Both the position numbers and the translations under genes were made by a program. This document shows, piece by piece, positions 37,904 through 55,782 of a stretch of DNA of 64,000 nucleotides. The notes beneath the pieces are model-generated. The model did not search any database and was not told the DNA's origin. It worked only from the letters and a program-made list of their open reading frames with translations. The stretch spans positions 1 through 64,000 of the forward strand of contig DUMB01000096.1 of assembly GCA_012840085.1 (NCBI GenBank), read 5' to 3'. Position 1 is the stretch's first letter. Each line of letters starts with the position of its first letter. The stretch is from Clostridiaceae bacterium. GTDB lineage: Bacteria > Bacillota > Clostridia > Acetivibrionales > DUMB01.

Positions 37904-38005
37904 TAAAACACTATGAAAAAGGCAAACTTATTGAAAAATAAGGACGCAAAGCCACGAGTCTAAGGTGTAAAGCACTATGATAGTCGGGTTGCCAGGGTGT
38001 ATTTG
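37904..38005 (+). ncRNA. c-di-GMP-I (GEMM) riboswitch, chemosensory unit 1
   Basis: Aptamer landmarks in order: AAACAC (P1 5' side), AAGGCAAAC, a GAAA tetraloop in TTATTGAAAAATAA (P2), GGACGCAAAGCCACGAGTCTAAGG, GATAGTCGGGTTGCC (P3 with its receptor) and GTGTATTT (P1 3' side). These are the conserved elements of class-I c-di-GMP riboswitches. A terminator follows at once, so c-di-GMP should control read-through into the che operon. The sign (on or off) cannot be read with certainty. Confidence 0.93.
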
Positions 38006-38020
38006 AATAGTGGTATTTAA

Positions 38021-38053
38021 AGCCATGGCAAACAAGATTGCTATGGTTTTTTT
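38021..38053 (+). terminator. Expression-platform terminator of riboswitch 1
   Basis: AGCCATGGCA (38021-38030) pairs with TGCTATGGTT (38039-38048) with two G-U pairs, followed by T (to 38053). Confidence 0.8.
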
Positions 38054-38109
38054 AGTTACTGTAAATAAATTACTGGCGGATTCTGCCTGTAACCTTGAAA
38101 GGAGCAAGT

Positions 38110-38133
38110 ATGACAGCAGTAATGAATTATTAG
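38110..38133 (+). CDS. Seven-codon ORF behind a strong ribosome site
   Basis: GAAAGGAG (38096-38103) and ATG 38110 open a 7-aa frame ending TAG 38133. The same leader position and ribosome site in unit 2 start a cheY gene. It may be a leader peptide or the stump of a lost gene. Confidence 0.3.
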   Translation: MTAVMNY

Positions 38134-38213
38134 AGCAAGTTTAAACAGTGAGCAACAGCCGCAGAAACCTAATAGTTGGAAATTTGACAATTAGACAAAG
38201 GAGTTGGGGAAAC

Positions 38214-38462
38214 ATGCTTCAATTAACTGATGAAGAATTGTTGAGGTATATAAAGAGTTGTGAAACTGAGGTCAATACATTGGCTGAAATTCACAAAGCC
38301 TTGATTCAAAAAAACATAAAGTGCAATATTGAAGAACTCCGGCAGAAGGTATTTCTTTTGCACCGCGATGGTTATATAGGAAATGAGCCAACCGTTGACG
38401 GTGTGAATATGTACTACATAATTTTCAACCCCGAGGTTGCAAATGAAAATCCTGTAACTTAA
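38214..38462 (+). CDS. 82-aa protein, possible winged-helix, first gene of the che unit
   Basis: ATG 38214 has GGAG 10 and GGGGA 3 bases upstream; a GTG at 38148 is in frame but lacks a site. The protein (LTDEELLRYIKSCETEVNTLAEIHKALIQ, IEELRQKVFLLHRDGYIGNEPTVDGVNMYYIIF) has a helix-helix-strand order with a GY-containing wing typical of small winged-helix folds. No family recognised. It is the first gene after the riboswitch, 115 bases before the receptor gene. Confidence 0.65.
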   Translation: MLQLTDEELLRYIKSCETEVNTLAEIHKALIQKNIKCNIEELRQKVFLLHRDGYIGNEPTVDGVNMYYIIFNPEVANENPVT

Positions 38463-38577
38463 CCAGAATTAGGATGTACAGTGAATTGGGAAAGATAAAG
38501 TTTTTCTGATTATTGTACATTTTACTAAATAAATTCCAAAAAATTTTTAACAAAAGAATTCAGGAGGTCGAATTGCT

Positions 38578-40524
38578 ATGGAAAAAAAACTTGCAAAGCC
38601 CTCGAGTGCTGGAAATGAAAAGGGAGCAGCACAGGTATCAGCATCTATAACAGATGAAATGGAGAAAAAAAGAGAACTTGCCAGAAAGCATGCTCAAGAT
38701 AAAGTGAGGGCAAGGACACTGGCCAAGCAGCAACAATTGGCTGAAAGGATTGCAGTTGCAACAGAGCAACTTGCTTCAGGTATCGAAGAAGCAAGCAGCG
38801 CCGCTGAAGAGCTTAGCACAACCATGGCTCAGATTGCCAAAGGGGCAAACGAAGCATCTTCTGCAGCAGAAGAGTCAAGAGCTGCAATCAACCAGATAGA
38901 AAAGGCTTCGGATGTAGCCGAAAAGAATGCAAAGGAATCCCTTGAAAGGGTGGATATATTAAAGGAATTAATTGAGAATACATCAAATGATATTGAGCTA
39001 ATGATTAAAGGAATTCAGGAATCAGCCAACACCAACCTGGAATCCGTGAAACTGGTAGGCGAACTGGAGAAGCAGTCCAATGAGATAGGGGAAATTGTAC
39101 AGGCGGTGGTAAGAATTGCCGACCAGACCAACCTGCTTGCTCTGAATGCAGCTATAGAAGCCGCCAGGGCCGGTGAGCATGGAAAGGGTTTTGCTGTCGT
39201 AGCGGATGAAGTCAGAAATCTGGCAGAGATATCAGAAAAATCAGCCAGAAATATCAGAGAACTTGTAAATGAAATACAGAATAATGTAAAAATCGTTGTG
39301 GCTGATATAGAAAATGCAGGCAAGGCCGCCAATGAAGAGGTTGAGAAAGCAAAGAGAACCACTGATGACCTTGTGAAAATAAATGAGGAAATTACCTCAG
39401 TACAAGCAGGGGTTGCAGAAATATACCAAAATGCTGTGGATGCAAACAAGGGAGCAAGTGAGTTCCTGGCAATAGCCGAACAGATTGCAGCGGCTGCTGA
39501 GCAGCAAAGCAGTGCTGCAGAGGAAGTGGAAAAGTCAATCGGCATGCAGAACAGGGCTTTCGATGAATTAAATGCGGGTGCTTCCGATTTGGCCCAGATG
39601 GCTGAATATTTAAAGGTATCTACAGATACGCAAAAATCCTCAGAATCCCTTGCAGCTGCTTCTGAAGAACTGTCAGCTAACGTGGAGGAGGCAAGTTCGA
39701 CTGCAAATGAGATAATGAAGGCCATGCAGCAGATATCCTCCGGTGCCCAGGCCCAGGCTGAACTAACTGATAGAGCTGCAAAACTTGCAGAAAGGCTTGT
39801 TGTAGCAGCAACTCAAATGAGTGAAAGAGCAGCATATTCCGCAGATAAGATAGCAGAACTTCAGAAGCTGTTGGAAGCAAATAAAACTGCAGTTGATAAT
39901 CTGATTACCGGTATATCGGCTTCTGCAGAATCCAGCATAGTGTCAGCTAAGAACATAAAGAATCTTGAGGAAACCACCAGGAAAATTGATAAGATTGTAG
40001 ATGCCATAGTAAATGTATCTATTCAAACGAATATGCTGGCTGTAAACGGCTCAATTGAAGCTGCAAGAGCTGGGGAATTCGGAAGAGGTTTCTCTGTAGT
40101 TGCCGGGGATATAAGGGCTCTTGCCAACGAGTCTGCAGAAAACACAGACAAAATCAAGGACCTTGTAAGAGGCATACAGAACCAGATTCAAAGGGTTGCA
40201 GCTGATATTGACCTTTCCAGCAAGACCTCCTTTGCGGAAGTGGAAAAGGCAAAGAAAACCACTCATAATCTCAATGTAATTGAAGAAAGCATGATAAAGA
40301 TTCTTGCAGGATCAAGGGAAATCAAGAAAGGTTCGGATGAGTCGTTGGTAGCCCTGGAACAGGCAAAGAAGGGCGTTGACCAGATTGCTATCGCTGCCCA
40401 GGAAGCCAGCAGCGGAGCCGAACAGGCAGCAGCAGCGGCAAGTCAGCAGGCAAAAGGCATGCAGGAACTTGCTGAAGCTATTGAAGAGATATCAGGATTG
40501 GCTGATGAGCTTCAGAATATGTAA
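38578..40524 (+). CDS. Soluble chemoreceptor with two tandem MCP signalling modules
   Basis: 648 aa with no membrane helix and no sensor domain. Two complete receptor hairpins follow each other: tip 1 [20 protein letters not shown] (from about residue 181) then [16 protein letters not shown]; tip 2 [20 protein letters not shown] (from about 481) then [18 protein letters not shown]. Each is flanked by Glu/Gln/Ala-rich methylation-type helices ([26 protein letters not shown]). The second tip is diverged (LAVNGS for LALNAA), so it may bind CheA/CheW differently. A short basic N-terminus (1-60) precedes. AGGAGGT lies 9 bases upstream. It is the only receptor in the cluster. Confidence 0.93.
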
Positions 40525-40542
40525 AGAATGGAGGGGATAGTA

Positions 40543-42024
40543 ATGGCTACTGGTATAAACAATGCCAGCTTTAACGAGCGCCAGCTAGTTACCTTCCAGC
40601 TTGGAGAGGATGAGTTCGGGGTCGATATCATGGATGTGAAGGAGATCATCCGGGTTCCTGATATCACAAGAGTACCCAATGCTCCCAGTTATGTCGAAGG
40701 CGCATGTAACCTGAGAGGGAATGTTCTTCCTATCATTGATGGAAGGACCTGGCTTAATCTGGAGAGAAAATTGAAGGATGAAAACAGCAGGGTGCTTGTC
40801 ATCGATGTTGGTGGTAAGGCTACCGGAATTATTGTAGACAAGGTGTCGGAGGTGGTGAGGGTAAATACCGTAGATATTGAAGAACCACCGCAAATCGTTA
40901 AAAACGTAGATTCCGACTATTTGAACGGTGTTGTGAAGCTGGACAATGGAAACAGGCTTATCATGCTATTAGATGTTGTAAAGGCCTTATGCGTAAATAG
41001 TACCGGAAAAGAACAGGTAAACGGACAGGACGAAAATTTGCAAAAAAACATGACAGTGCAAAATAGCTCCGGTACCGAGGCCATCGATGAGGAACAACTG
41101 GTTTCCTTCATCCTGGACAAAGAGGAATATGCCATTGGAATCATGGAGGTTAAAGAAATCATCCGGGTACCTCAAATAGTAAAGGTTCCAAACTGCGAGG
41201 CCTATATTGAGGGTGTGGTTTCCATACGCAATAACCTGCTGCCCATTATAAACCTGAGGACATATTTCGGAATGGAACACCTGGACCTCAGTGATCATAC
41301 CAGAATACTTGTGGTGGATATGGGTAATTTTACTGCGGGTATTATGGTAGACAAGGTTTTAGAAGTTTTGAGAGTTCCAACGAGCGTTATCCAGCCTCCG
41401 CCGAGATTCTCCACTCAAAGCGGGGAACTGCTAAAGGGAGTGGCAAAGCTTGATAACGGAAAGCGCATGATTCTGATGCTTGAACCATCTAAACTGGTTT
41501 CAGCTGACGAGATCAGTGGAATCAGCGGAATTGACGGAACTTATGAACAGGATACATATGAGATGAGTATAACAAGACAAGTGCTTGACGAAGAACAGTT
41601 GGTAGCATTCAAAATAGATTCGGAGGAGTATGGGGTTAAGATAGCCAATGTTCAGGAAATCAACAGGATGACCGATGTTACCAAGGTACCCAGGGCTCCT
41701 TACTATATAGATGGAATTGTAAACTTAAGAGGGAATGTAATCCCCGTGCTGAATCTTAGAAGGTTTTTCAAGCTCCCGGATAAACAGGCGACTGATGCCA
41801 CAAGAATTATTATTGTCGATTTCAATGGGAAAAGAACGGGAATTGTGGTAGATTCGGTTTCGGAAGTGCTCAGATTTGAAAAAACACTGATAGAGGCGAC
41901 ACCGGATGTGTTAAGCAGCGGAATTGACAGCGATTATGTGGAAGGCGTTGGAAAACTCGACGGTGGTAAAAGAATGATTTTGATACTGGATATCAGCAAA
42001 ATACTGAGTTTTAGTGAAGCGTAA
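40543..42024 (+). CDS. Triple-CheW coupling protein
   Basis: 493 aa from ATG 40543 (GGAGGGG, 6-base spacing). Three complete CheW domains: about 12-145 (QLVTFQLGEDEFGVDIMDVKEIIRV), 181-315 (QLVSFILDKEEYAIGIMEVKEIIRV) and 349-485 (QLVAFKIDSEEYGVKIANVQEINRM), each with VPNAP/VPNCE, LRG/IRN and a late KLD-GKRMI segment. Short acidic linkers separate them. CheW joins receptor tips and CheA in hexagonal arrays; a three-in-one protein could bridge several rings. It follows the receptor gene by 18 bases. Confidence 0.93.
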   Translation: MATGINNASFNERQLVTFQLGEDEFGVDIMDVKEIIRVPDITRVPNAPSYVEGACNLRGNVLPIIDGRTWLNLERKLKDENSRVLVIDVGGKATGIIVDKVSEVVRVNTVDIEEPPQIVKNVDSDYLNGVVKLDNGNRLIMLLDVVKALCVNSTGKEQVNGQDENLQKNMTVQNSSGTEAIDEEQLVSFILDKEEYAIGIMEVKEIIRVPQIVKVPNCEAYIEGVVSIRNNLLPIINLRTYFGMEHLDLSDHTRILVVDMGNFTAGIMVDKVLEVLRVPTSVIQPPPRFSTQSGELLKGVAKLDNGKRMILMLEPSKLVSADEISGISGIDGTYEQDTYEMSITRQVLDEEQLVAFKIDSEEYGVKIANVQEINRMTDVTKVPRAPYYIDGIVNLRGNVIPVLNLRRFFKLPDKQATDATRIIIVDFNGKRTGIVVDSVSEVLRFEKTLIEATPDVLSSGIDSDYVEGVGKLDGGKRMILILDISKILSFSEA

Positions 42025-42049
42025 GATTTGAAAGGATTACTGAATTTTG

Positions 42050-42215: not shown

Positions 42216-42264
42216 GCGCCCCCGTTTTCAAACAATTACGACATAATCATGACAGGTGATGTTT

Positions 42265-43344
42265 GTGACCGACAGAACAAGAGTGTTGATTGTAGATGAT
42301 TCAGCCCTTATGAGAAAGGTACTTAAAGAGATCATCATGACCGACCCAAGTCTTGAGGTGGTGGGAACGGCAAGGGATGGACAGGATGCTGTTGAAAAAG
42401 TGCATGAGCTGAATCCGGATGTAATTACCATGGATATCAATATGCCGGTTATGGACGGCTTGACTTCCATGCAGTACATTCTGAACGATTATCCCGAACT
42501 GCCTGTTTTAATCATAAGTTCTCTTACCACAGAAGGAGCCTTGACTACTTTTGAAGCTTTGGAGCTTGGAGCCTTTGACTATGTGGCCAAGCCTTCAGGG
42601 ACGGTATCCTCGAATATACATATTATTGGAAGAGAAATTATACAAAAGATTAAGCTGGCGTATAAGAGCGCAAATAGAAAAAGCATAAAAGATAGAGCTA
42701 AGAGGCTGAGTTACGCAACTGCAGCAAAAAGAACGGTGCCTGAAATAAAGACAGGCATACAAAAAAGCGAAGGCCTGTCAAAAATAGTTGTCATCGGTGT
42801 TTCAACAGGCGGTCCCAGCACATTGATGGAGGTTCTCCCGATGCTTCCTCCCAAACTGAAGGCGGCATTGATTGTAGTACAGCATATGCCTCCGTCCTTT
42901 ACATCATCTTTTGCCAAAAGACTGAACGGAGCCTGCCAGTTTCCATTTAAGGAAGCAAAGGCAGGGGATGTCCTTCAGGATGGAATAGGCTACCTTGCTC
43001 CGGGGGGTTACCAACTGAAGGTGAGAAGGGAAGGAGGAATGCTTCGCATTTCAGACAGTCCCAAAACCCTTTTTATGCCCTCGGTTAATGTAACGATGGA
43101 ATCTGTTTTAGAGGCATATGGAGGAAAAAATGTGATAGGAGTTCTTATGACCGGAATGGGAGACGATGGAGCGGATGCCATGGTAAAGATAAGAAAGGCA
43201 GGAGGCATTACCATAGCTGAGGATGAGTCCACAGCAGTAGTTTTCGGTATGCCAAGGGAAGCAATAGAAAGAGGTGGCGCTGAGATTGTTGTGCCGTCCT
43301 ACATGATAGCTGATGAGATTGTAAAAGCAGTAAACAGAAAATAG
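42265..43344 (+). CDS. cheB: CheB, receptor methylesterase/deamidase
   Basis: 359 aa from GTG 42265 (AGGTGAT just upstream); GTG 42256 and ATG 42259 are in frame. Receiver domain 1-125 (VLIVDDSALMRKVL, phosphorylated Asp in VITMDINMPVMDG, Lys in YVAKPSG), then a linker and the esterase domain (about 165-355) with the catalytic Ser of GVSTGGPSTL (about 180), His of VVQHMPPSFTSSFAKRLN (about 206) and Asp of GMGDDGADAM (about 299). It removes methyl groups from the receptor; it is the partner of CheR two genes on. Confidence 0.95.
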   Translation: MTDRTRVLIVDDSALMRKVLKEIIMTDPSLEVVGTARDGQDAVEKVHELNPDVITMDINMPVMDGLTSMQYILNDYPELPVLIISSLTTEGALTTFEALELGAFDYVAKPSGTVSSNIHIIGREIIQKIKLAYKSANRKSIKDRAKRLSYATAAKRTVPEIKTGIQKSEGLSKIVVIGVSTGGPSTLMEVLPMLPPKLKAALIVVQHMPPSFTSSFAKRLNGACQFPFKEAKAGDVLQDGIGYLAPGGYQLKVRREGGMLRISDSPKTLFMPSVNVTMESVLEAYGGKNVIGVLMTGMGDDGADAMVKIRKAGGITIAEDESTAVVFGMPREAIERGGAEIVVPSYMIADEIVKAVNRK

Positions 43345-43420
43345 CTCGAAAAACAGAAAACAGACTGAAATGATGGAAACGGCAAAGTATCGTAAAGTTG
43401 TCTGTAGAGAGGGTGTGTAC

Positions 43421-45283
43421 ATGGACAAGGATAAAACAGCGTTTGATGAAAAGGAACTGGCGACCCTCATTGAAAGGTTGACAGGAGAAAAAGAAAGGTA
43501 TCAGCAGGAGAAGATTGCACGAAAAATCGGAATGATGAAATATGAAGAGACTGCGGAATCTATTGCCGAACTTCTTTATTCCGATGATGCATATATACGC
43601 AATATTGCCATTGAGATATTGGCTTCTCTGGGCGAAAAGGCACTGCCGGTTCTGGAAAGGAAGCTGCAGGATAAGGATAGAAATATACGGAAGTTTTCGC
43701 TGGACGCATTAATGAATATAAGAATGGCCAAAAGTTGTGAAATAGCATTGAATGCCCTTGATGACCCTGATGAAAATGTCGTGGAGGCGGCTGTTGAGGT
43801 AATTGCGGAACAGCAATATACTGAGGCGTCAGGCAGACTTATCGGCATGTTGAAGAGGACAGACAGCATATGGATTCTAAATGCGCTGATCAGGGCATTT
43901 GCCAGGCTTGGTGTAAAAGGTATTGTATGTGAAATTTACGAAAAAATATTAAGCCTCAGAGCAACTACTATTGAAAAAGGTATTCTGGTGAATACACTGG
44001 TTAAAAGCATGGGAACCATTGGCTCATCCAAGGATATAGAAAAGGTTTTGAATACATATACGGTTGAATACAGGGTGGATGATTCCAATCTGCTCTTTGG
44101 GTTAAGCGGGTTGATAGTGAATAATGACGTATCCATGCTTCCAAAGGAACTTGTTGCAAATATTGACAGAGTTTTCAGGGAGTACAGGGATTACAGCGAT
44201 GCTGAACTGACACTGCTTTTAATAGCGGCTTCAGTCAAACTGCAGCTTGTGTTTTTCCTGGAGGATATTAAAGAAATAATTTTTTTGCATAAAGGAGAGG
44301 AATTCTTTATTGAGAACCTTCTTGACCTCATTTGCATGTTAAATAATATTCCTCATGATTTTATCAGAAAGATGTTGAACAGTGCTGAGCCTGAATTAAT
44401 GCTGATGGGGCTTAATTTAATATATAAGAAGCATATATGCGGATTTAACAGCATTGTTGAAGAACTGTGTGATTCCGCAGACAGTGAGATATCGAATTTG
44501 GCGATAAACATTATTTCGGACCTGGATTGTTACAAGAATATTGGCTTACTTGAGAGTTTAACTGATTTTAATGAAGAAGCGGCGATAATTGCTATTAAAG
44601 GAATAAACATGCCGGATGCTAAGTCGGTTGATTTTCTTCTTTCAAAACTTGAACATAAGAGCCGGAATGTCAGAAAGGCTGCGTCGGTAAAGCTGGTTTC
44701 CATTACAAGTGAAATATGTATTGAAAGGCTTGAGGATATTGTTAAGCGCAACTTGGGAGAAGAAGGAATTGAAGCGCTGGAAGTTATGTTCGGATTTGAC
44801 AAAAAACTTGCATGGAAATACATTACCGCCAGACTGGACAGCAGAGATGACAAAGTCAGAACCAGGCTTGTGGATATTGTAGAAGGAGAGAATGACCACA
44901 ATTATTACAGCTTTATGGAAACAATGATCAATGATCCTTCGGCTATTGTAAGAAAAAAGGTGATAAAGAGTTTGTGCAGGAGGATCGAAGACAGAAGTCT
45001 GCAACTGCTGGAAAAATTGTTACAGGGAGAATCGGACATTGGAAACAGGAAGGATATTATTTCAAACATGTATAGGTTTAACAATGATAAAGCGCTAAAC
45101 ATAACAATTGAGGCAGCAGGAAACAGCAATACATTGATCCGTTTGGCTGCTGTGAGGTCATTGGCGTTGTTTGGCGATGAGCGGGCAAATGATGTGATGA
45201 GAGAAATGTTGAAGGATCAGGTCTTAGAGGTGAGAGAAGCGGTAGAAGAAGTCTTACGCAGCAGGGTAGAGGTGATTAAATGA
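43421..45283 (+). CDS. HEAT-repeat protein of the chemosensory operon
   Basis: 620 aa from ATG 43421 (GAGGGTG 6-12 bases upstream). Nearly the whole length is HEAT-type helical repeats, for example AESIAELLYSDDAYIRNIAIEILASLGEKALPVLERKL and NIRKFSLDALMNIR near the start and DSRDDKVRTRLVDIVEG, DPSAIVRKKVIKSLC, NTLIRLAAVRSLALFGDERAND near the end (quoted in parts). No catalytic motif. HEAT solenoids are protein-binding scaffolds; here it sits between cheB and cheR and overlaps cheR by ATGA, so it may recruit or place the methylation enzymes. This is inference. Confidence 0.85.
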   Translation: MDKDKTAFDEKELATLIERLTGEKERYQQEKIARKIGMMKYEETAESIAELLYSDDAYIRNIAIEILASLGEKALPVLERKLQDKDRNIRKFSLDALMNIRMAKSCEIALNALDDPDENVVEAAVEVIAEQQYTEASGRLIGMLKRTDSIWILNALIRAFARLGVKGIVCEIYEKILSLRATTIEKGILVNTLVKSMGTIGSSKDIEKVLNTYTVEYRVDDSNLLFGLSGLIVNNDVSMLPKELVANIDRVFREYRDYSDAELTLLLIAASVKLQLVFFLEDIKEIIFLHKGEEFFIENLLDLICMLNNIPHDFIRKMLNSAEPELMLMGLNLIYKKHICGFNSIVEELCDSADSEISNLAINIISDLDCYKNIGLLESLTDFNEEAAIIAIKGINMPDAKSVDFLLSKLEHKSRNVRKAASVKLVSITSEICIERLEDIVKRNLGEEGIEALEVMFGFDKKLAWKYITARLDSRDDKVRTRLVDIVEGENDHNYYSFMETMINDPSAIVRKKVIKSLCRRIEDRSLQLLEKLLQGESDIGNRKDIISNMYRFNNDKALNITIEAAGNSNTLIRLAAVRSLALFGDERANDVMREMLKDQVLEVREAVEEVLRSRVEVIK

Positions 45284-46104
45284 TTTTAAGCGATGAATTG
45301 TTCGACAAGTTTGCCAGGCTGGTTTACATGAGGACTGGAATATATTATGACATCAATAAAAAGTACTATGTCCAGAAAAGGGTTGAAAAACGCGCTGAAG
45401 CCCTGGAAATGGAAACATTAAATGAATATTACTATATGTTAAAGTTTTCCGACGACTCGTCTGAGTTTGAAAAACTGGTTAATGACCTTACAGTGAATGA
45501 AACGTATTTTTTTCGGGATTTTCCACAGCTTAGAAACTTCGCCGAGGATGTTCTGCCTGTGGTCGTAAGAGAAAAAAAGAACAGTAAAAAAATCAAAGTG
45601 TGGAGTGCAGCGTGCTCTACGGGAGAAGAACCCTATACATTGTCAATTATTCTCCAGGAAATGTTGGACAGGCCTGAGGAATGGGATATACAGATCATTG
45701 CTTCCGACATAAACACGGAAGTGCTGGAATTTGCGAAAATCGGACTGTACGAGACCAGGTCTGTCAAGGATGTACCGCCTGAATACCTGGAAAAATACTT
45801 TACAAAACGCAATGACAAGTATCTTGTTAACCTGAATATCCGTAAGCCGGTTGTATTCAAACGGATTAATCTGGTGTGTGAAGATGAAACGAGCGCTGTC
45901 AATGGATGCGATTTTATATTTTGCAGAAACTGTCTGATTTATTTTGATGATGAATCAAGGAGGAACGTAATAAGCAGCTTATATGAAGCTTTAAATCCAG
46001 GAGGTTTTATCTTCCTCGGACACTCGGAATCGGTGGGAAGGATATCCTCTGCTTTCAAGGTGCAAAGAATAGGAGGCGCCATTGTTTATTCAAAGCCGAA
46101 GTGA
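45280..46104 (+). CDS. cheR: CheR, receptor methyltransferase
   Basis: 274 aa. An N-terminal helical domain (1-75, LVYMRTGIYYDINKKYYVQKR) and a SAM-binding catalytic domain with VNETYFFRD, WSAACSTGEEPYTL (motif I), IIASDINTEVLEFA (Asp for SAM ribose), DFIFCRNCLIYFD and LNPGGFIFLGHSESV. It lacks the C-terminal TPR of CheR-TPR fusions. It methylates the receptor glutamates opposed by CheB. Translationally coupled to the HEAT gene. Confidence 0.95.
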   Translation: MILSDELFDKFARLVYMRTGIYYDINKKYYVQKRVEKRAEALEMETLNEYYYMLKFSDDSSEFEKLVNDLTVNETYFFRDFPQLRNFAEDVLPVVVREKKNSKKIKVWSAACSTGEEPYTLSIILQEMLDRPEEWDIQIIASDINTEVLEFAKIGLYETRSVKDVPPEYLEKYFTKRNDKYLVNLNIRKPVVFKRINLVCEDETSAVNGCDFIFCRNCLIYFDDESRRNVISSLYEALNPGGFIFLGHSESVGRISSAFKVQRIGGAIVYSKPK

Positions 46105-46485: not shown

Positions 46486-46503
46486 GACTGAGGAGTGCAT
46501 ATA

Positions 46504-48738
46504 ATGAGCGGTGGATTTTATCTGGATGATATTGATTTGACTAAAATGTTTATAGATGAATGGACCGAATGCCTGGAAGGACTTGAGAAGGAAATACTGA
46601 AGCTTGAAGTTCATTCTGACGACAGCGAGCTTTTAAATGATATTTTCAGGAGGGTTCACAGTATAAAAGGAGGCTCCTCCTTTGTGGGGCTGTCCGGTAT
46701 AACAAGGCTCAGCCATGAAATAGAGTTTACGCTGGATGCAATACGAAAGAAGAAAGTATCTGTTAATATGGAACTTATCGATAGTTTGCTGCAGGCTGTA
46801 GACTTTTTAAATGGTTACATCAGCCGGATTTACAATAAATTAAAAGAATATGATTCTTCAGGCGGAAACGGGACGATTTATATAGAATTCGGGGAAGAGG
46901 AGAAAGAAAAGTCAGTTCTGGAAGGCTTAAGGCAGGCACTGGAAAAGCGTGAAAACAATGATGAAGAAGACGGGAAAACAGGGGAAACAGGCGGACAGGA
47001 AGATGCAGAACTGGGTCTGCTGCAGACAGAGGAGTTTAAAAGCAAACTGGCAGAAGAATTGAAGGAACAGTTCCTTCTTGAAAATACGGAGCATATAGAT
47101 CGAATTGAGAACCAATTATTAATACAATTGGAAAGTAGCGGGAACGACAAGGACGCTGTTCTTGAAATGTTCAGGTCTATTCACAGTATTAAGGGTGGAA
47201 TAGGTTTTTACCTGGCAACAATATCCAATCAAAGTCCATATTATCCTACGTTAAAAGGGTTTTCTGAAGTGGTGCACACTTTTGAAAGCTTGCTGGCGCT
47301 GGTTAGGGACAGAGGACTTACCTATGGTAATAAACTCATTGATTTGAGTTATGAGGTGATGGATTATTTAAAGACTTCCATGAATGCTGTTGCTTCCGAA
47401 GAGTGCAATGATGTTCCAACAGCCCACATTCTTGATAAAATTGAAAGGTTTTTATCAAACCTTCAATCCGTATCCGGCAATGATACGGAGAGTTATGCCA
47501 AAACTTTAAGACCCGAACCCGGAAAGATTGCCGACATGCAGCAGAAAAGCAATATAATGCAGAGCATCAGGGTCAGCCAGGAAAAGCTGGACAAGATGAT
47601 GAACATGATTTCAGAGTTGCTTATTGCTAAAAACACTTTCATGCATATTGCATCCAGGCTGAATCTTGATTATAACCTTCCCGAAATGTCGAAGGAAGTA
47701 AAAGAAGTGGGAGCTTATATCAACAGGATCTCTGATGATCTTCAAAACGCGATTATGTCAATAAGAATGGTGGAGATTAAAACAATATTCCAAAGAATGC
47801 CCAGGGTTGTAAGAGATATATCCCAGAGCACCGGAAAGAAGATGGAATTGATTATGGAGGGTGAGGACACAGAGATCGATAAGACAATTATTGAACAGAT
47901 CAGCGATCCTTTGGTGCATTTGATACGTAATGCCGCGGACCATGGTATAGAGGCACCGGAAGAGCGGTTGTCCAAAGGTAAGAACGAGACTGGAAGAATT
48001 GTATTAAGAGCTTATAACAAGAACAAGCATGTGTATATTGAAATTGAAGACGACGGTAAGGGAATAGATGCGGAAAGTTTGAAGAAAAAAGCCATTGAAA
48101 AAGGCTTCATTACTAAAGCAGAAGCGGAAAGCATGAGCAGAGGCCAATTGATAAACCTTATATTCCTCCCGGGCTTCAGCACTGCAAAACAGATTACTGA
48201 AGTGTCGGGGCGGGGAGTAGGAATGGATATAGTAAAAAGCAATATAGAAAAGATTAATGGAAATATCACAATAGAAAGCGAAGTGGATAAAGGAACGAAA
48301 ATGATTATTCAACTGCCGCTTACTCTTGCAGTTTCGCGCGGCTTAACCGTTGAGGCTTCCGGAGAAACATATATTTTCCCTTTGGAGTATATCGTTGAAA
48401 CTGTAAAGATTTCCCGGAACAATATTCACACATTTAACGATAAGTACTTTACTCATTTAAGGGGAGATGTTATAGGAGTTGAATGGCTATCCAGAATTTT
48501 CCTTACAGGAAGATGTGATGACGAAAAAGAAGAGCTGAATGCCGTGATAATATCAAACGGTGCAGAAAAATACGCAATTATTGTGGACAAGCTAAAAAGC
48601 GAGCAGGAATTTGTTGTAAAGACATTGGACGGACACCTGTCGTCCATACCTGGAATATCCGGCTCAACCCTATTAGGTAACGGACGGGTTGTGCTGATTG
48701 TAAATCCGGCAGATATCATACAACTTGCACAGAAGTAG
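46504..48738 (+). CDS. cheA: CheA histidine kinase with two HPt domains
   Basis: 744 aa from ATG 46504 (GAGGAG, 8-base spacing). Two P1/HPt domains are present: His52 in RVHSIKGGSS and His227 in SIHSIKGGIG, separated by an acidic linker (about 125-180). A P3 dimerisation helix pair follows (about 350-420), then the P4 ATPase (HLIRNAADHGIEAPEERLSKG, DDGKGID, GRGVGMDIV) and a CheW-like P5 domain (about 610-740). No classical P2 domain is evident. With two phospho-sites and two or three CheY-type proteins, the kinase may drive separate branches. Confidence 0.95.
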   Translation: MSGGFYLDDIDLTKMFIDEWTECLEGLEKEILKLEVHSDDSELLNDIFRRVHSIKGGSSFVGLSGITRLSHEIEFTLDAIRKKKVSVNMELIDSLLQAVDFLNGYISRIYNKLKEYDSSGGNGTIYIEFGEEEKEKSVLEGLRQALEKRENNDEEDGKTGETGGQEDAELGLLQTEEFKSKLAEELKEQFLLENTEHIDRIENQLLIQLESSGNDKDAVLEMFRSIHSIKGGIGFYLATISNQSPYYPTLKGFSEVVHTFESLLALVRDRGLTYGNKLIDLSYEVMDYLKTSMNAVASEECNDVPTAHILDKIERFLSNLQSVSGNDTESYAKTLRPEPGKIADMQQKSNIMQSIRVSQEKLDKMMNMISELLIAKNTFMHIASRLNLDYNLPEMSKEVKEVGAYINRISDDLQNAIMSIRMVEIKTIFQRMPRVVRDISQSTGKKMELIMEGEDTEIDKTIIEQISDPLVHLIRNAADHGIEAPEERLSKGKNETGRIVLRAYNKNKHVYIEIEDDGKGIDAESLKKKAIEKGFITKAEAESMSRGQLINLIFLPGFSTAKQITEVSGRGVGMDIVKSNIEKINGNITIESEVDKGTKMIIQLPLTLAVSRGLTVEASGETYIFPLEYIVETVKISRNNIHTFNDKYFTHLRGDVIGVEWLSRIFLTGRCDDEKEELNAVIISNGAEKYAIIVDKLKSEQEFVVKTLDGHLSSIPGISGSTLLGNGRVVLIVNPADIIQLAQK

Positions 48739-48770
48739 CATTAAATTTTATTGAGATGGGAGATGTTGGA

Positions 48771-49151
48771 ATGAAAGGCGTAAAATTAATGATTGTGGAT
48801 GATTCCCCCGCGATTCATGTAATTATAGAAAGGGCAGCTATTGCAAATGGATATGAAGTATGCGCACATGCGAAGAACGGAGATGAAGCAGTGAAGCTTT
48901 ATGAATCGACCAGGCCGGATGTTATAACAATGGACATTACAATGCCTGTAAAAGACGGTTTGACTGCTTCAAAAGAGATACTTGCACAGAATCCCTGTGC
49001 AAAAATATTGATGCTCAGTGCAATGGGAGACGAGGAAATAGTAAAAGAAGCAAAGGATATTGGAATCACACACTTTATGAAAAAGCCGTTCAAAGGCGAG
49101 GATATAGTGAATGCAATAAACAATATGATATTGGGAGAAACAGGAGAGTAA
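48771..49151 (+). CDS. cheY: CheY-like response regulator 2
   Basis: 126 aa from ATG 48771 (GGGAG, 8-base spacing); an in-frame ATG at 48756 is less well placed. Receiver features: LMIVDDSPAIHVIIERA, Asp in VITMDITMPVKDG, Ser in LMLSAMG and Lys in HFMKKPFKGEDI. It follows cheA by 32 bases and precedes two cheX genes, so it is the best candidate for the main output regulator with dedicated phosphatases. Confidence 0.9.
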   Translation: MKGVKLMIVDDSPAIHVIIERAAIANGYEVCAHAKNGDEAVKLYESTRPDVITMDITMPVKDGLTASKEILAQNPCAKILMLSAMGDEEIVKEAKDIGITHFMKKPFKGEDIVNAINNMILGETGE

Positions 49152-49152
49152 T

Positions 49153-49608
49153 ATGAATTATATTGAGTTTTTTAAATATTCTGTCAAAGAATCTTTTGAG
49201 AATATGTTTGGAGAAAAGATAATATTGAGAAACGAGACTAAGGCTCCAGGATGGATAACATCAAAGGGAGCTGCTGTCGTTGTAGGGATATCAGGTGAAA
49301 AAAAAGGAAGGCTTCTCATTGACATGTGTCTTGACACAGCGTTGGAGCTTTCTAAAATACTCATTCCCGAGATGGAGGATGAAGATTTTGCCCTTTTTAC
49401 CATTGCGGAGTTATGCAATATTGTATCGGGAGGAGCTACAACTCTTATAAATGACACATTGAGGAGACGGGCTTTAAGACTTGCCCCACCAAGCATTTTT
49501 GCCGGGAGCAATTTCAAGCTTTTTTCTCCAAAGCTTAATTCAGTATTGTTAAGTTATGATACCAGATTTGGAGAGATTGATTTTCATATTGGTTTTGAAG
49601 GAGAATGA
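49153..49608 (+). CDS. cheX: CheX-family phosphatase 1
   Basis: 151 aa of the CheX/CheC fold. The active-site pattern E-x2-N appears in TIAELCNIVSGGATTLIN (Glu/Asn about 89/92), followed by the Pro of APPSIFAG. The domain dephosphorylates CheY-P. The stop overlaps the next cheX by 4 bases or abuts it, depending on the start chosen. Confidence 0.85.
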   Translation: MNYIEFFKYSVKESFENMFGEKIILRNETKAPGWITSKGAAVVVGISGEKKGRLLIDMCLDTALELSKILIPEMEDEDFALFTIAELCNIVSGGATTLINDTLRRRALRLAPPSIFAGSNFKLFSPKLNSVLLSYDTRFGEIDFHIGFEGE

Positions 49609-49610
49609 AA

Positions 49611-50072
49611 ATGGACGCTAAATATATAAATCCTTTTATTAATTCTGTTTCAGGAGTATTTGCCAGTTTAGGACTGGGGGAAATTGCAACAGGAAATATT
49701 TTCAGGAAAGAAACCTTTATCTGCAGGTATAACCTTACCACCATTTTAGGTATATCAGGAAGTATAAATGGAAATGTTGCATTAAGCATGCCATATGATA
49801 CAGCTAAAAAAATTGCATCTGCCATGATGATGGGAATGGACGTTACAGAGATAGATGAAATGTCGGTTAGCGCATTGGGAGAACTGACTAACATGATCTG
49901 CGGGCAGGCTGCCACTGAGTTTTCATTGCAAAATCTGGTTGCAGAAATTACTCCGCCAACAATTATTCATGGGGACAATATGAAGGTTATTATCAGCCAG
50001 GTTGAGACGACGGCAGTTGAATTGAGTTCGCTTTTGGGAAGTATTGAGCTGAATCTTGGTCTTGAAATTTAA
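49611..50072 (+). CDS. cheX: CheX-family phosphatase 2
   Basis: 153 aa from ATG 49611, which has GAAGGAGA 6 bases upstream; ATG 49605 is also in frame. A standard CheX: NPFINSVSGVFASLG, ALGELTNMICGQAATEFS (Glu/Asn motif about 88/91), EITPPTIIHG. More canonical than its upstream neighbour. Two CheX proteins with two or more CheY proteins suggest matched pairs. Confidence 0.9.
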   Translation: MDAKYINPFINSVSGVFASLGLGEIATGNIFRKETFICRYNLTTILGISGSINGNVALSMPYDTAKKIASAMMMGMDVTEIDEMSVSALGELTNMICGQAATEFSLQNLVAEITPPTIIHGDNMKVIISQVETTAVELSSLLGSIELNLGLEI

Positions 50073-50093: not shown

Positions 50094-50870
50094 ATGCCCG
50101 GAAAAGTGAGAAAATATGCTGTGCTCAACAATAAGGGCGGTGTGGGTAAAAGCACAATTGCGGTACATGTTGCACACGGTCTTGCCATCAAAGGGAAAAA
50201 AGTATTGCTGGTGGATATGGATGGGCAAAATGATGCAAGCCTTTTCCTTGGATTTACTTCAGAAGATTATAATAACAGCCTTTATGATATTCTGACGGGG
50301 CGGGAGGGCATAAATCTTTCAGAATGTATTATCAATGCAAGAGATAATCTTGATTTGCTGCCGTCAAGAAATATAGACCGGATTAACTCTGAACTATATA
50401 AAGAGACCAGGATAGACCTGTTTTTAAAAGAAAAATTGAAGGGTTTGGAGGAAATGTCTTACGATTACGTGATTATTGATTGCGGACCCCAGCGGAGCAA
50501 AATCAATGATGCGATTTTGTATTTTGTTGACGGTATTATTGTGCCGGTTCAGGTGGAAACGGCTTCTGTAAGGGCCATAGGGAATATTTATGAGTACCTT
50601 GCGGATTTGCACCTGAACTCAGACCTGGTTTCTCTGATAGTACCGAACATGTATGATCAGAGAACTGTTGACGGAAAAGAAAATCTGGAGTTTATTAAAG
50701 AGTTTTTTGCAGGTACTGATTTGCTGGTTCAGCCTGTACACAGGAGGATTAAGATTGCAGAGGTTGGCAAGCTTGGGAAAACAGTTTATGAATTTGATGA
50801 AGAGTCTTCAAAGCAATTTAACCGTATTGTTGAAAGGCTGGTGAACAGTGATGCCGAGGCGAAGCAGTAA
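50094..50870 (+). CDS. ParA-family ATPase, array-positioning type
   Basis: 258 aa. Deviant Walker A NNKGGVGKSTIAVHVAHGLA (Lys14 and Lys19), switch I VDMDGQNDAS, Walker B YVIIDCGPQ, then VPVQVETASVRAI. ParA-like ATPases (ParC of Vibrio, PpfA of Rhodobacter) place cytoplasmic or polar chemoreceptor arrays and are coded inside che operons, as here. No ParB is present. AGGAGG precedes the ATG, and the 3' end overlaps the next gene by 20 bases. Confidence 0.92.
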   Translation: MPGKVRKYAVLNNKGGVGKSTIAVHVAHGLAIKGKKVLLVDMDGQNDASLFLGFTSEDYNNSLYDILTGREGINLSECIINARDNLDLLPSRNIDRINSELYKETRIDLFLKEKLKGLEEMSYDYVIIDCGPQRSKINDAILYFVDGIIVPVQVETASVRAIGNIYEYLADLHLNSDLVSLIVPNMYDQRTVDGKENLEFIKEFFAGTDLLVQPVHRRIKIAEVGKLGKTVYEFDEESSKQFNRIVERLVNSDAEAKQ

Positions 50871-52521
50871 AAAGAACAAAAATAATTTAGAAAAGATAAA
50901 GAGGGAAATGAGCAGGAAAAAACAAAAAGCCGAAGACAGAAATGAACCGGTTGATTCATCTGCAGATATAGGGAAAACTGCTATAGAGAAAACTGCTGGG
51001 CGGCAGGCTTTGCAGATTGAGGCCCAAAAAGGGACAGGGAATGAATGCGTGCCGGAAGAGACGGATAACGAGAAAATTGAAATGTTGGTGTTCCGTATAG
51101 GAGAAGAAGAATTTGCACTGAGGATCACAAGCATAAAAGAAATTATCAGGATTCCTTCAATGACAAAAGTTCCAAATACGCCACAGTATATAAGCGGTTT
51201 GTGCAGCCTGAGAGGTGAACTGCTGCCTGTTGTTGACTGCAGGAAATTGTTCGGTATTCCTGAACAGGAACTTGGCGAAAGCAGCAGAATCATTGTGGCA
51301 GATATTCATGAAAAGAAGATTGGATTGATATCTGACAAAGTTTTAGAAGTGATAAACGTTGAAGAGGCAGATGTAAAAGAACCTCCCGCCGGTATTAGAG
51401 GGGCTGATGGAGGAGTTGTAAACGGTATTCTGATACTTAATAACGGAAAAAGAGTAATTATGATTCTCGATGCTGAGAAAATTATTAAAACGGGGGATCT
51501 TGATACAGCCGCAAAACAGCAGCATACACATGTGGATAAATTAACGGATTCAGAAAAGAAAGAGGATGAAGAAGAGCAAATTGTTGTATTTAATATTGGC
51601 ACAGGAGAGTATGGGTTCAATATTAATTGTATAAAGGAAATAATCAGGCTGCCTGACGTCATGAAGGCACCCAATACAGCAAGCTATATTGAGGGTGTGC
51701 TTTCTGTCAGAAACCGCCTTCTGGCGGTTATCAATCCGGGCAGGCTCCTTGGTATAAACTGCAAACAGCCGGACGAAAACAGCCGTGTCATAGTTATAGA
51801 CAATGGGAACTTTTCATATGGAGTAATAGTTGATAAAGTGTCCCAGGTTGTGCGGGTGAGGAAGGAATTATTCAAAGAGAACATTCAGAATGCAAGTTTT
51901 GCCGGAATAGAGTTTGTCAAAGGAATATTAAATCTAAATAACGGTCAAAGGCTGATAATGATTCTGGAGCCTGACAAACTGATAAGCCTGGAAGACGTAA
52001 AAGGTGTTTCGGACGTTGATTATAAGAAAACAGCAAATGATAAATCAGCACATGATAAATCATTATATGCCGGTGAAGCAGATGACAGTCTCGAATATGT
52101 TGTTTTTAAGCTGGGTGAGGAAGAGTACGGAATAGAAATTAACAGTGTACAGGAAGTTAACAGAATTGACGGGATTACCCGTTTCCCCGGTGCTCCTGTG
52201 TTTATTGCAGGGATGGTTGATTTACGGGGTGAAATAATACCCGTACTGAATCTCAGAAGACTGTTTGGCATGGATGATTCAGACTCTTATAACGTGTCCA
52301 GGTTTTTAGTTGCCGAGTCCGGAAATAAAAAAACAGGTATCCTGATAGATTCAGTATCCGGTGTTCTGAGATTCTCAAAGGCTTATCTTGAAGAAGCCCC
52401 GGGAGCATTAAAAGAAAAAGGTCAGGAATGCTATATAGATAAGATAGCGAAATTGAATGATGGCAAAAGAATTGTTTTGGTATTGGATCTTTCAACAATG
52501 CTGAGTTTTATGCAAGATTGA
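50851..52521 (+). CDS. Second triple-CheW protein with basic N-terminal tail
   Basis: 556 aa from ATG 50851 (GTG 50848 also possible). Residues 1-75 are Lys/Arg-rich then acidic and look disordered (MPRRSSKKNKNNLEKIKRE...). Three CheW domains follow at about 76-215 (MLVFRIGEEEFALRITSIKEIIRI), 241-380 (IVVFNIGTGEYGFNINCIKEIIRL) and 413-550 (YVVFKLGEEEYGIEINSVQEVNRI). The gene overlaps parA by 20 bases, a layout like parC-parP, where ParP has an array-integrating CheW-like domain and a ParC-binding tail. That parallel is inference; ParP has a single such domain. Confidence 0.92.
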   Translation: MPRRSSKKNKNNLEKIKREMSRKKQKAEDRNEPVDSSADIGKTAIEKTAGRQALQIEAQKGTGNECVPEETDNEKIEMLVFRIGEEEFALRITSIKEIIRIPSMTKVPNTPQYISGLCSLRGELLPVVDCRKLFGIPEQELGESSRIIVADIHEKKIGLISDKVLEVINVEEADVKEPPAGIRGADGGVVNGILILNNGKRVIMILDAEKIIKTGDLDTAAKQQHTHVDKLTDSEKKEDEEEQIVVFNIGTGEYGFNINCIKEIIRLPDVMKAPNTASYIEGVLSVRNRLLAVINPGRLLGINCKQPDENSRVIVIDNGNFSYGVIVDKVSQVVRVRKELFKENIQNASFAGIEFVKGILNLNNGQRLIMILEPDKLISLEDVKGVSDVDYKKTANDKSAHDKSLYAGEADDSLEYVVFKLGEEEYGIEINSVQEVNRIDGITRFPGAPVFIAGMVDLRGEIIPVLNLRRLFGMDDSDSYNVSRFLVAESGNKKTGILIDSVSGVLRFSKAYLEEAPGALKEKGQECYIDKIAKLNDGKRIVLVLDLSTMLSFMQD

Positions 52522-52800: not shown

Positions 52801-52826
52801 TCTTTCCAAGAAAAACCTGTGCATGT

Positions 52827-52846: not shown

Positions 52847-53094
52847 GTCTATGACACTATTCGACAAATTAACATTTTTTCCTCCTTTTTTATTTTAAAA
52901 TTTTTGTTCCTTTTCTTGATTATTACTGTACTTATAATTGACTCATCTGTCATAAAACGTTCTTCAACAATGTAATAAAATATAATTATTATCGATAAAT
53001 TAATACATCTGCTTTTATGGTTATTTCTATAGAATATCTTCATTACAAATTAAACAGTTCATTATGCAGATAATTGCCTAACATTTAGTAACGC

Positions 53095-53114
53095 AACATT
53101 TTAGATAATATGTT
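53095..53114. promoter_or_regulatory. Leader dyad site 4
   Basis: AACATTTTAGATAATATGTT, the exact inverted copy of site 3, 268 bp downstream of it, and carrying the matching base change relative to site 2. Confidence 0.55.
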
Positions 53115-53184
53115 GCATAACTGTATAATTAAAATAACAGTAAATAGCTAAAATCCAATAATACCTATTAAAAAAACGTTGTTA

Positions 53185-53286
53185 AAAAAACACTATGAAA
53201 AAGGCAAACTTATTGAAAAATAAGGACGCAAAGCCACGAGTCTAAGGTGGAAACACTATGATGGTCGGGTTGCCAGGGTGTATTTG
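53185..53286 (+). ncRNA. c-di-GMP-I (GEMM) riboswitch, chemosensory unit 2
   Basis: Almost identical to the unit 1 aptamer: AAGGCAAAC, P2 with GAAA loop, GGACGCAAAGCCACGAGTC, CTATGATGGTCGGGTTGCC and GTGTATTT. Differences fall in P3 (GGTGGAAACAC against GGTGTAAAGCAC) and in the P3 receptor strand (GATGG against GATAG). A terminator follows. It implies that the same second messenger controls both che units. Confidence 0.93.
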
Positions 53287-53302
53287 AATAATGTGAATTA
53301 AT

Positions 53303-53334
53303 GCCATGGCCAGAAAGATTGCCGTGGCTTTTTT
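53303..53334 (+). terminator. Expression-platform terminator of riboswitch 2
   Basis: GCCATGGC (53303-53310) pairs with GCCGTGGC (53321-53328) with one G-U pair, followed by six T. Confidence 0.85.
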
Positions 53335-53404
53335 CGATTGATAATTCAATTACTGTAAGTGAGTAAATTACAGGATTCTACCTGTATCATTGAAAGGAGT
53401 AAAT

Positions 53405-53761
53405 ATGAAAAAGGTGTTGATAGTAGACGATGCTGCGTTTATTCGGCTGCAGCTGAAACAATTACTTGAGGAGAATGGTTTTGAGGTTGTTGGTGAAGCT
53501 GATAATGGAAAAGCGGCATTAAAAAAAATTCAGGAATTAAAGCCGGATATTGTCACTCTTGACATCACTATGCCGGAAATGAACGGCATTGAGTGTATGA
53601 TTGAAATTAACAAAATGGAATATAAGCCTACCGTTATAATGGTTTCTGCGATGGGACAGGAAGCTTTTGTGCAGAAAGCAATAATTAACGGGGCAAAAGG
53701 CTTTATTGTTAAGCCATACAAGCCGGAAGTAGTCATAAATTATCTGAATAAGTTTAAATGA
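53405..53761 (+). CDS. cheY: CheY-like response regulator 3, unit 2
   Basis: 118 aa from ATG 53405 (AAAGGAG, 8-base spacing). Receiver features: VLIVDDAAFIRLQLKQLL, Asp in IVTLDITMPEMNG (about 54), Ser in MVSAMG, Lys in FIVKPYKPE. It is closest in pattern to Firmicute CheY. It is the first gene behind riboswitch 2. Confidence 0.93.
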   Translation: MKKVLIVDDAAFIRLQLKQLLEENGFEVVGEADNGKAALKKIQELKPDIVTLDITMPEMNGIECMIEINKMEYKPTVIMVSAMGQEAFVQKAIINGAKGFIVKPYKPEVVINYLNKFK

Positions 53762-53863
53762 AGCAGTGATAAATTGTTTGAATAAGTCAATTATTGCACC
53801 GTCATACAGGATAGCTGAAGAAATAATTAAATATGTATCTTATAAATTGTAGGGAGGTTTCTT

Positions 53864-54274
53864 ATGAAGAATAAATATAAGGTTTTGATAGTTGATAAAG
53901 AAGAAGAAATACTGCACACCCTTAAAGAATTTCTGGAGCAAGAAACCTATACTGTTGAAACTACCCGAAGCTCTGTTGATGCTATTGAAAAAATAAAAAG
54001 TGATAAATACCACATTGTATTGATTGATACAGATATGCCTGAAATGAACGGAGTTGAGCTTTTAAAGGAGATAAAAAGCTATGATGCCTTAACACAGGTC
54101 ATCATGATGTCGGGGCATTCTACAATGGAAAAAATATTAAGTTCTCTTGAATATGGTGCCAATGATTACATACAAAAGCCTTTTACAAATATGGATCATG
54201 TCATGCAGGTCATTGATTATTCTGTTCAGAAACTGGAGCGGTGGAGGCAGTCAATTATTCAGATAGTAAAATAG
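53864..54274 (+). CDS. Receiver-domain protein, unit 2
   Basis: 136 aa: YKVLIVDKEEEILHTLKEFL (the first acidic pair is DK rather than DD, with E-E following), Asp in IVLIDTDMPEMNG, MMSGHSTMEKIL and Lys in DYIQKPFTN. The pattern resembles NtrC-type receivers, with a short C-terminal helix and no output domain. TAGGGAGG precedes the ATG. It may be a phosphate sink or relay for the downstream HPt protein. Confidence 0.85.
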   Translation: MKNKYKVLIVDKEEEILHTLKEFLEQETYTVETTRSSVDAIEKIKSDKYHIVLIDTDMPEMNGVELLKEIKSYDALTQVIMMSGHSTMEKILSSLEYGANDYIQKPFTNMDHVMQVIDYSVQKLERWRQSIIQIVK

Positions 54275-54321
54275 CCAACATGTAAATGATTGCTGTTACG
54301 TTGTATCAGGAGGTGAGTTTT

Positions 54322-55782
54322 ATGGATACCATGGTCCAGTTCTATATGGAAGAAACGGAAGATTTGCTTCAAAAAGCAGAAGAATGCCTTATCAGGCTTG
54401 AGACTGAATATTCATCTGTTGATGTCAATGAGTTATTCAGAATAGCTCATACAATTAAAGGTTCTTCCCAGATGGTAGGATACGAGGACATTGGAAATGT
54501 TATGCACAAAATTGAGGATATGCTTGACTGCGCAAGGAACGGCACAATCCTGTTTGACCAGGGCATGGTGTCTCTTTGCTTCAAGGGCCTGGATATCGTT
54601 AAAAAGATGCTGCGATACAAAAAAGGGCAGAGGTCCGGGGAGGTGATGGAGGACTTCACCAATGATGTTTCAAGAATCAACGAAATGTTTGAAGCCTTTA
54701 TCAGCGCCAATAAGAAGGAAGAGGAAAATACTGCAGCTGAACAGCCTGCTATGGGAATAGTTGCTTCTCTCCTGAATAAAAAACCTGAAAGTAAAAACAA
54801 GTATTATATTAGCTTCTTCATAGAAAAGGACGCTCCTATGGTATCTCCCGTATTCATAATGATCTTAAAATGCGTTGAGGATATTGGCTCTCTTGTGTAT
54901 TCCAGCGTGACAGACAGCTATTTTTCAGAATCTCCTGAAGATAATGAAATAAGAACTTTTGACATCATTCTATGTACAGATGTTGAGGAAGCTGAACTAT
55001 ATACTTATTTTGACCTGTCTTATGTTGAAAAGATAAACATAGTGGATTTAACCAGAAGCAAGCTTGAGGATAATGACTATTACTTCAATAACAGCGACAA
55101 TACCTTCTATATTGCTGTTTTAGGAGTCTTTATAAAGCTGTACAATATATTTTTCAGCCGCCCTAAAGAACTTAAAGTGAACAAAGAAGAGCTTCATATT
55201 ATAGAATCTTTGCGCAGCAAAGCTGTCAACGCTTTTGAAAAAATAAACAACAAAAATAAACTCAGCGCGTTTATAAATGATTTCAATGAGTTTTTCTCCA
55301 TTGTCACTAAAATGTATGAAGGGCAATCAGAGGCTGGTGAAGAGCTTTGCTCCAATATCCGGACTCATTTGTTGAAGCTGATGGAGAGAGCCAATAACTA
55401 TGCAAAAGGCAAACATGTATTTAGAGTTTTAAAACCCGAAAAGAACGATTTTATCAACAGACTGAAGAATTTTACAGGAATGGTGAATAACTCCTCAACC
55501 TTAGTTATTTTTATTGATTTGAGCAATCTGGATATATTGCATGAGAATGAAGTAAAGGCTCTGATTGAAGTAAAAAAACAAATGGAGGAAAAGAATATAA
55601 AAATAGGCATCATAGCAGGGGGGTGCTACTCCAGAAGAATTATTAATATTTTTGATTCTATAAAACCCGTTGAGGAATTTAATCTTTTTAGTTCTGAGCT
55701 TGATGCAATTTTAGGGATGCTCTATTCCCAGGATTCTTTTCAAAGAATCATTAGAAAGGTAAAGAGCGAACAGTACGAATAA
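54322..55782 (+). CDS. HPt protein with central P2-like and C-terminal STAS-like domains, no kinase
   Basis: 486 aa from ATG 54322 (AGGAGGTGA). An N-terminal HPt domain has His43 in RIAHTIKGSSQMVGY. The middle (about 150-240, KNKYYISFFIEKDAPMVSP, FDIILCTDVEEAELY) resembles CheA P2/receiver-binding folds. A helical part follows, and residues about 385-470 (STLVIFIDLSNLDILHENEV, KNIKIGIIAGG) look like a STAS-type fold. CheA P4/P5 domains are absent. With the two receivers upstream it suggests a phosphorelay branch fed by the CheA of unit 1. The order of domains is inferred by eye. Confidence 0.75.
   Translation: MDTMVQFYMEETEDLLQKAEECLIRLETEYSSVDVNELFRIAHTIKGSSQMVGYEDIGNVMHKIEDMLDCARNGTILFDQGMVSLCFKGLDIVKKMLRYKKGQRSGEVMEDFTNDVSRINEMFEAFISANKKEEENTAAEQPAMGIVASLLNKKPESKNKYYISFFIEKDAPMVSPVFIMILKCVEDIGSLVYSSVTDSYFSESPEDNEIRTFDIILCTDVEEAELYTYFDLSYVEKINIVDLTRSKLEDNDYYFNNSDNTFYIAVLGVFIKLYNIFFSRPKELKVNKEELHIIESLRSKAVNAFEKINNKNKLSAFINDFNEFFSIVTKMYEGQSEAGEELCSNIRTHLLKLMERANNYAKGKHVFRVLKPEKNDFINRLKNFTGMVNNSSTLVIFIDLSNLDILHENEVKALIEVKKQMEEKNIKIGIIAGGCYSRRIINIFDSIKPVEEFNLFSSELDAILGMLYSQDSFQRIIRKVKSEQYE

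Follow-up and report, generated by a model that had tools for sequence, protein, structure and literature searches.

A cytoplasmic chemosensory module in a Clostridiaceae bacterium, apparently split into two units behind c-di-GMP-I riboswitches and inverted recombinase-type sites

The locus described here occupies positions 37904-55782 of the window, a stretch of 64,000 nucleotides (1-64,000, forward strand) of contig DUMB01000096.1 from a Clostridiaceae bacterium (GCA_012840085.1). It encodes a chemosensory system in two gene units, and the leader of each carries a cyclic di-GMP (c-di-GMP)-I riboswitch with a pair of inverted, recombinase-type sites upstream. CheA, CheW, a soluble receptor and CheB/CheR are found together in one cluster, as in cytoplasmic chemosensory systems, which are known from few, mostly Gram-negative models. 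The genes, with domain assignments given as Pfam matches of the window proteins, are as follows.

38214..38459, + strand: 82-amino-acid winged-helix protein, first gene of unit 1 (orthologues in the cluster; AlphaFold pLDDT 82)
38578..40521, + strand: soluble chemoreceptor with two tandem signalling domains (PF00015, twice)
40528..42021, + strand: triple-CheW protein 1 (PF01584, three stretches)
42256..43341, + strand: CheB (PF01339 and PF00072)
43370..45280, + strand: HEAT-repeat protein (PF13646, six stretches)
45280..46101, + strand: CheR (PF01739)
46117..46482, + strand: CheY-type receiver a (PF00072)
46495..48735, + strand: CheA with two HPt domains (PF01627 twice, PF02895, PF02518, PF01584)
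48756..49148, + strand: CheY-type receiver b (PF00072)
49153..49605, + strand: CheX-type phosphatase 1 (PF13690)
49605..50069, + strand: CheX-type phosphatase 2 (PF13690)
50094..50867, + strand: ParA-type ATPase, Walker A KGGVGKST (PF13614)
50848..52518, + strand: triple-CheW protein 2, with a basic N-terminal helix, overlapping the ParA gene (PF01584, three times)
53390..53758, + strand: unit-2 CheY, near flagellar CheY; its counterpart heads the operon in many relatives
53864..54271, + strand: unit-2 single receiver domain (PF00072)
54286..55779, + strand: HPt - P2-like - STAS protein (PF01627 and predicted structure)

The leaders of the two units contain the following features.

37544..37567, unstranded: left site of unit 1, arms GTAACATAT / AAATGTTGT, spacer TATTTA
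37811..37834, unstranded: right inverted site of unit 1, spacer TAAATA, the reverse complement of TATTTA
37911..37996, + strand: c-di-GMP-I aptamer 1 (RF01051, 89.1 bits, E 2.4e-16)
38019..38050, + strand: intrinsic terminator 1, a 13-bp stem followed by a T run
38110..38145, + strand: remnant of a deleted CheY gene in the unit-1 leader, its start codon fused to former C-terminal codons
52825..52848, unstranded: left site of unit 2, spacer TATCTA
53093..53116, unstranded: right inverted site of unit 2, spacer TAGATA
53193..53277, + strand: c-di-GMP-I aptamer 2 (RF01051, 86.7 bits)
53302..53336, + strand: intrinsic terminator 2, a predicted hairpin with a T run, unlisted by the consensus scan

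Every gene that an earlier note on this DNA had named in the two units was recovered by Pfam, apart from the STAS part of the unit-2 HPt protein, which has no Pfam match and is supported by its predicted structure; that structure matches CheA P1, CheA P2 (1u0s) and anti-sigma antagonists. The note had overlooked the winged-helix gene, the P2-like domain, the inverted sites, the CheY remnant and a stressosome cassette in relatives. The AlphaFold model of the 82-residue protein has a winged-helix fold of the Fur/MecI type. About 270 bp between the second triple-CheW gene and leader 2 (52540-52810) hold no clear gene.

In an Rfam gathering search, both aptamers covered positions 1-87 of the full c-di-GMP-I covariance model and scored well above its gathering score of 35, and behind each lies a terminator hairpin with a T run as expression platform. 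The proposal that a GEMM riboswitch with a terminator precedes each che unit is thus confirmed, and the aptamers and terminators together argue for c-di-GMP control of both units. A genome-wide search found no third c-di-GMP-I riboswitch, so that these two are the only ones. With six GGDEF matches in its genome, the cell can make c-di-GMP.

Relatives of the locus were found with a triple-CheW protein as query in the order and class of the window genome and in additional named genomes. The cluster is present in about 29 genomes including the window's (about 28 others, from Clostridia and Bacilli), with Lutispora, Acetobacterium, Clostridium, Pseudobacteroides, Heliobacterium, Paenibacillus, Cohnella and Aneurinibacillus among the holders. 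Its common order is CheY, winged helix, double receptor, triple CheW, CheB, receiver and HPt-P2-STAS, followed by (HEAT), CheR, CheY, CheA, (CheY, CheX, CheX), ParA and triple CheW, with losses and shifts among the holders. Because this order includes the three unit-2 genes, which in the other genomes mostly lie within the same operon, they are normal members of one cluster; unit 2 as an independent system was rejected on these grounds. The earlier view that both units form one system is borne out, whereas the impression that the gene set was unique did not hold. The gene-order search that the note had suggested does find the cluster widely, but mostly with the genes of both units in one operon. 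It is the riboswitch that is the rare part: it precedes the cluster in only 4 of the approximately 29 holders (the window, Lutispora and two metagenome assemblies), a count that is a lower bound, as some contigs end near the locus. The riboswitch as part of the ancestral module was therefore rejected, and it is an add-on to the system.

The two window leaders share 72% identity over the 355 bp upstream of the aptamers, and the aptamers themselves are nearly identical. The CheY remnant in the unit-1 leader reads AGTAATGAATTATTAGAGCAAGTTTAAA, compared with AGTCATAAATTATCTGAATAAGTTTAAA at the end of CheY, and Lutispora retains a similar CheY fragment. Judged from these sequences, the module has been split into two transcription units in the window genome by duplication of the leader. 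In the Lutispora stretch (L086, 7600-7650 and 18027-18831), CheY has been lost with a remnant left, and the ParA and second triple-CheW genes look broken.

Phylogenetic groupings differ along the locus. The receptor (support 99), triple-CheW protein 1 (93/83), the unit-2 receiver (99/95) and the HPt-P2-STAS protein (99) group with Lutispora. CheR, by contrast, falls with the clostridial genomes G046 and G178 (98/94), which also come nearest for CheA, and a grouping of CheA with Lutispora was rejected (p-AU 9e-5). Because these groupings conflict, the present locus is read as a mosaic that was assembled by exchange. In a search of CheA against plasmids, all relatives were under 60%.

The receptor contains two complete MCP signalling domains whose halves align with each other collinearly over almost their full length, and it has no transmembrane stretch (maximum 19-residue hydropathy 1.06). 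The first domain aligns with a Thermotoga receptor over 220 residues with equal length. This architecture resembles that of DosM from the Vibrio cholerae cluster I / F9 array, likewise a soluble receptor with two signalling domains and no membrane anchor, which bridges two CheA/CheW layers (PMC7534058). The likeness is drawn from architecture, and the window system differs by its triple-CheW scaffolds, ParA, HEAT and HPt-P2-STAS proteins. A membrane-free array would be built from CheA, the double receptor and both triple-CheW proteins, and CheB and CheR would adapt it.

The ParA ATPase, with its deviant Walker A motif, is encoded beside and overlapping the gene of a CheW-domain partner. Triple-CheW protein 2 has a basic tail, FEKxKxEMxxKKQKA, that is conserved in 11 proteins of its kind and absent from triple-CheW protein 1; in Pseudobacteroides a similar tail occurs in a single-CheW partner of ParA. 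In Vibrio ParC/ParP (PMC7534058, PMC5706961) and other ParA-placed arrays, a ParA-type ATPase gene also adjoins a CheW-domain gene. The window system differs from these in that its partner combines three CheW domains with a basic N-terminal helix and would belong to a Gram-positive soluble array. By analogy, the basic helix is likely an ATPase-stimulating peptide, and ParA and this tail may place the array; the ParA-placed array foreseen by the earlier note is plausible.

CheA proteins phosphorylate CheY, receiver and CheB proteins, and CheX is a phosphatase. In the window, CheA would accordingly phosphorylate the CheY proteins, the receiver and CheB across both units, and the two CheX proteins would remove the phosphate. 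The HPt-P2-STAS protein might pass or buffer phosphoryl groups. All HPt sequences compared retain the HPt histidine; a point against this role is that the STAS domain has no usual Ser/Thr acceptor, and a docking function is more likely for the STAS part. For the unit-2 CheY, the nearest sequences are the flagellar CheY of the window genome and Thermotoga CheY, which makes an action on the flagellar motor plausible.

The site pairs upstream of the riboswitches each flank a segment of about 245 bp. Each site is a dif-like sequence of 24 bp in which a 6-bp spacer separates two 9-bp arms, as in the core site of a tyrosine recombinase. With up to one mismatch allowed, the window genome has such sites only at the two leaders, and no match was found in five shuffles of 34 kb; a chance origin of the repeats was rejected. 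Both window pairs are inverted, have identical spacers and flank a short segment ahead of a gene. Among the pairs compared, the two spacers of a pair are identical in 15 of 15, and 12 distinct spacers occur between pairs. Mismatches within pairs number 0/90 in spacers and 26/270 in arms, for which the probability at the arm rate is approximately 1e-4, a somewhat flattering statistic in that the pairs were found by their similarity. Identity within pairs and difference between them is the pattern expected if paired sites recombine. Between the two window pairs a single spacer base differs, and the change is present in both sites of a pair; this suggests that the sites recombined once the leader had been duplicated. 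From this pattern, the segments are likely to be invertible and to carry a phase-variable promoter.

A recombinase is linked to these sites in relatives. In eight of them (Lutispora, G178, G053 and five Bacilli), a pair of such sites with a spacing of about 850 bp encloses the gene of a 186-residue tyrosine recombinase, upstream of the same operon; the Gordonibacillus copy is in two pieces. The window genome encodes a homologue on another contig (C17:40002-40556, PF00589) with 78% identity to the Lutispora enzyme, and we infer that this protein may act on the window sites. The C17 stretch (L186, 4003-4557 and approximately 5405-5470) contains the recombinase gene, one intact site and a degenerate partner, and an apparent broken CheR fragment was read by eye near the gene. 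In relatives the same element is also located upstream of a Cache receptor gene, of a cheW-receptor pair and of a FapA-type gene, as well as between cheB and cheA (stretches L173, L179, L184 and L190).

Several observations weigh against inversion. Neither a recombinase gene nor a remnant of one lies between the window's sites. All recombinase genes found beside che-type genes point away from them, a uniform orientation that would be unexpected for freely inverting DNA, and the opposite orientation was not seen in any genome compared. The sites could instead be a fixed regulatory feature or a mobile-element relic, their palindromes being bound by the recombinase or by a repressor of their own, for which the 82-residue winged-helix protein is a candidate. 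This explanation, a serious minority possibility, is favoured by the missing recombinase and the constant gene direction just described, by the palindromic nature of every site itself and by the conserved winged-helix gene at the head of unit 1. However, it does not account for spacers that agree within every pair yet vary between pairs, and the winged-helix gene also occurs in genomes without sites. Inversion is retained as the likelier explanation.

Known systems offer parallels for such a layer. In Clostridia, inversions near chemotaxis genes have been detected from reads, and signatures in C. thermocellum DSM 1313 and others resemble the situation of the window sites; in Providencia one such segment of 844 bp encloses a recombinase (PMC5903667). 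What the present sequence-only analysis adds is the site family, the spacer rule and their connection with this module. The flgB leader of C. difficile combines, as the window leaders do, a GEMM-I aptamer, a terminator and a segment flanked by inverted repeats (PMC5386303, PMC9262584). There, however, the 154-bp segment lies between the riboswitch and the first gene of a flagellar operon, whereas in the window it lies upstream of the riboswitch of a chemosensory module, and the repeats look unrelated in sequence.

Six relatives (Pseudobacteroides, its sister genome, G177, G208 and two Heliobacterium species) carry in the operon, beside the HPt-P2-STAS gene, a full cassette of RsbR, RsbS, RsbT, an RsbX-like phosphatase and a histidine kinase; a seventh, G053, has part of it. 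The cassette occupies the interval from cheB to the receiver gene or lies close to it (stretches L036, L032, L034, L042, L105 and L106). In composition it resembles the RsbRST stressosome with two-component output (PMC9237108), but in these relatives it sits inside a chemosensory operon, and the window has no cassette. No paper describing a chemosensory operon combined with a stressosome cassette was found in a limited literature search. The cassette raises the possibility that the module is a signalling hub that feeds mainly a stressosome or gene-expression output and has no role in motility. For the window this is unlikely: the RsbRST genes are absent from it, its genome contains no RsbS match, FliG was found in 10 of the 10 holders tested, and the CheY of unit 2 belongs with flagellar CheY proteins.

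The direction of the riboswitches was assessed from five leaders. In all five (5/5), UGGC in the 5' arm of the terminator can pair with GCCA at the 3' end of the aptamer, and the Cd1 OFF switch of C. difficile has the same layout with a published T+A+H logic (PMC9262584). By this analogy the leaders are, with good confidence, OFF at high c-di-GMP. Some results fail to support this assignment. The full-length minimum-energy fold contains the terminator whether or not the aptamer is enforced. As no other state is more stable than the complete hairpin, energy folding does not decide the direction, and the case for OFF is built on the alternative pairing and the likeness to Cd1. The core antiterminator pairs are invariant in the five leaders, and covariation in the terminator helix is no higher than in shuffles and thus of no use. 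As to the locus as a whole, a consensus scan placed no promoter (leader 1 at chance, leader 2 unplaced). GEMM-type aptamers are known as both ON and OFF switches, and the closely related pilM riboswitch is ON (PMC9262584). The terminator of the window leaders stands apart from the aptamer, and the alternative pairing between the aptamer 3' end and the terminator 5' arm is an OFF arrangement. ON switches, with high c-di-GMP building the array for surface life or type IV pili, for example, are thus improbable, also because flagellar genes are present and c-di-GMP normally lowers motility. The earlier proposal that the array is built or removed as c-di-GMP changes stands with regard to riboswitch control, and its direction can now be specified as most likely OFF at high c-di-GMP.

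On balance, the locus as a whole is best explained, with somewhat better than even confidence, as one split cytoplasmic module with OFF riboswitches and a layer of recombinase inversion. Binding of c-di-GMP would free the terminator hairpin in each Cd1-like leader, and high c-di-GMP would silence both units together. A tyrosine recombinase encoded elsewhere in the genome would invert the upstream segment between the dif-like sites, giving a heritable on/off layer above the riboswitch. A wider extension is more tentative, at slightly less than an even chance in all its parts together: that this is a widespread Firmicutes module in which che-associated tyrosine recombinases invert a promoter segment and the downstream riboswitch serves as a fast override in some lineages, that the ancestral output also ran via the stressosome cassette of the same operon, and that the recombinase family sets heritable on/off states of other che and receptor genes as well.

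All parts are of known kinds; their combination and the association with the recombinase are new as far as could be searched. The module is a conserved Gram-positive version of a cytoplasmic array, with a large soluble scaffold and a positioning ATPase, and in the window both units lie under the genome's only two c-di-GMP-I riboswitches. If the sites are active, sensing itself would be phase-variable, beyond flagella or surface structures, and cells of one clone would differ in owning the array. The cassette of the relatives joins two large bacterial sensory complexes in one operon.

On contig C28 of the window genome (63-143 kb), CheA, CheY and FliG each occur twice as mirror images, with start and mirrored end always adding up to 205651; this is an inverted duplication that is probably an artefact of the assembly. 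A hemerythrin-like gene lies upstream of the cluster in the window (36774-37175, - strand), and a hemerythrin-like match is likewise located upstream in Clostridium bowmanii (stretch L087, 6661-7044).

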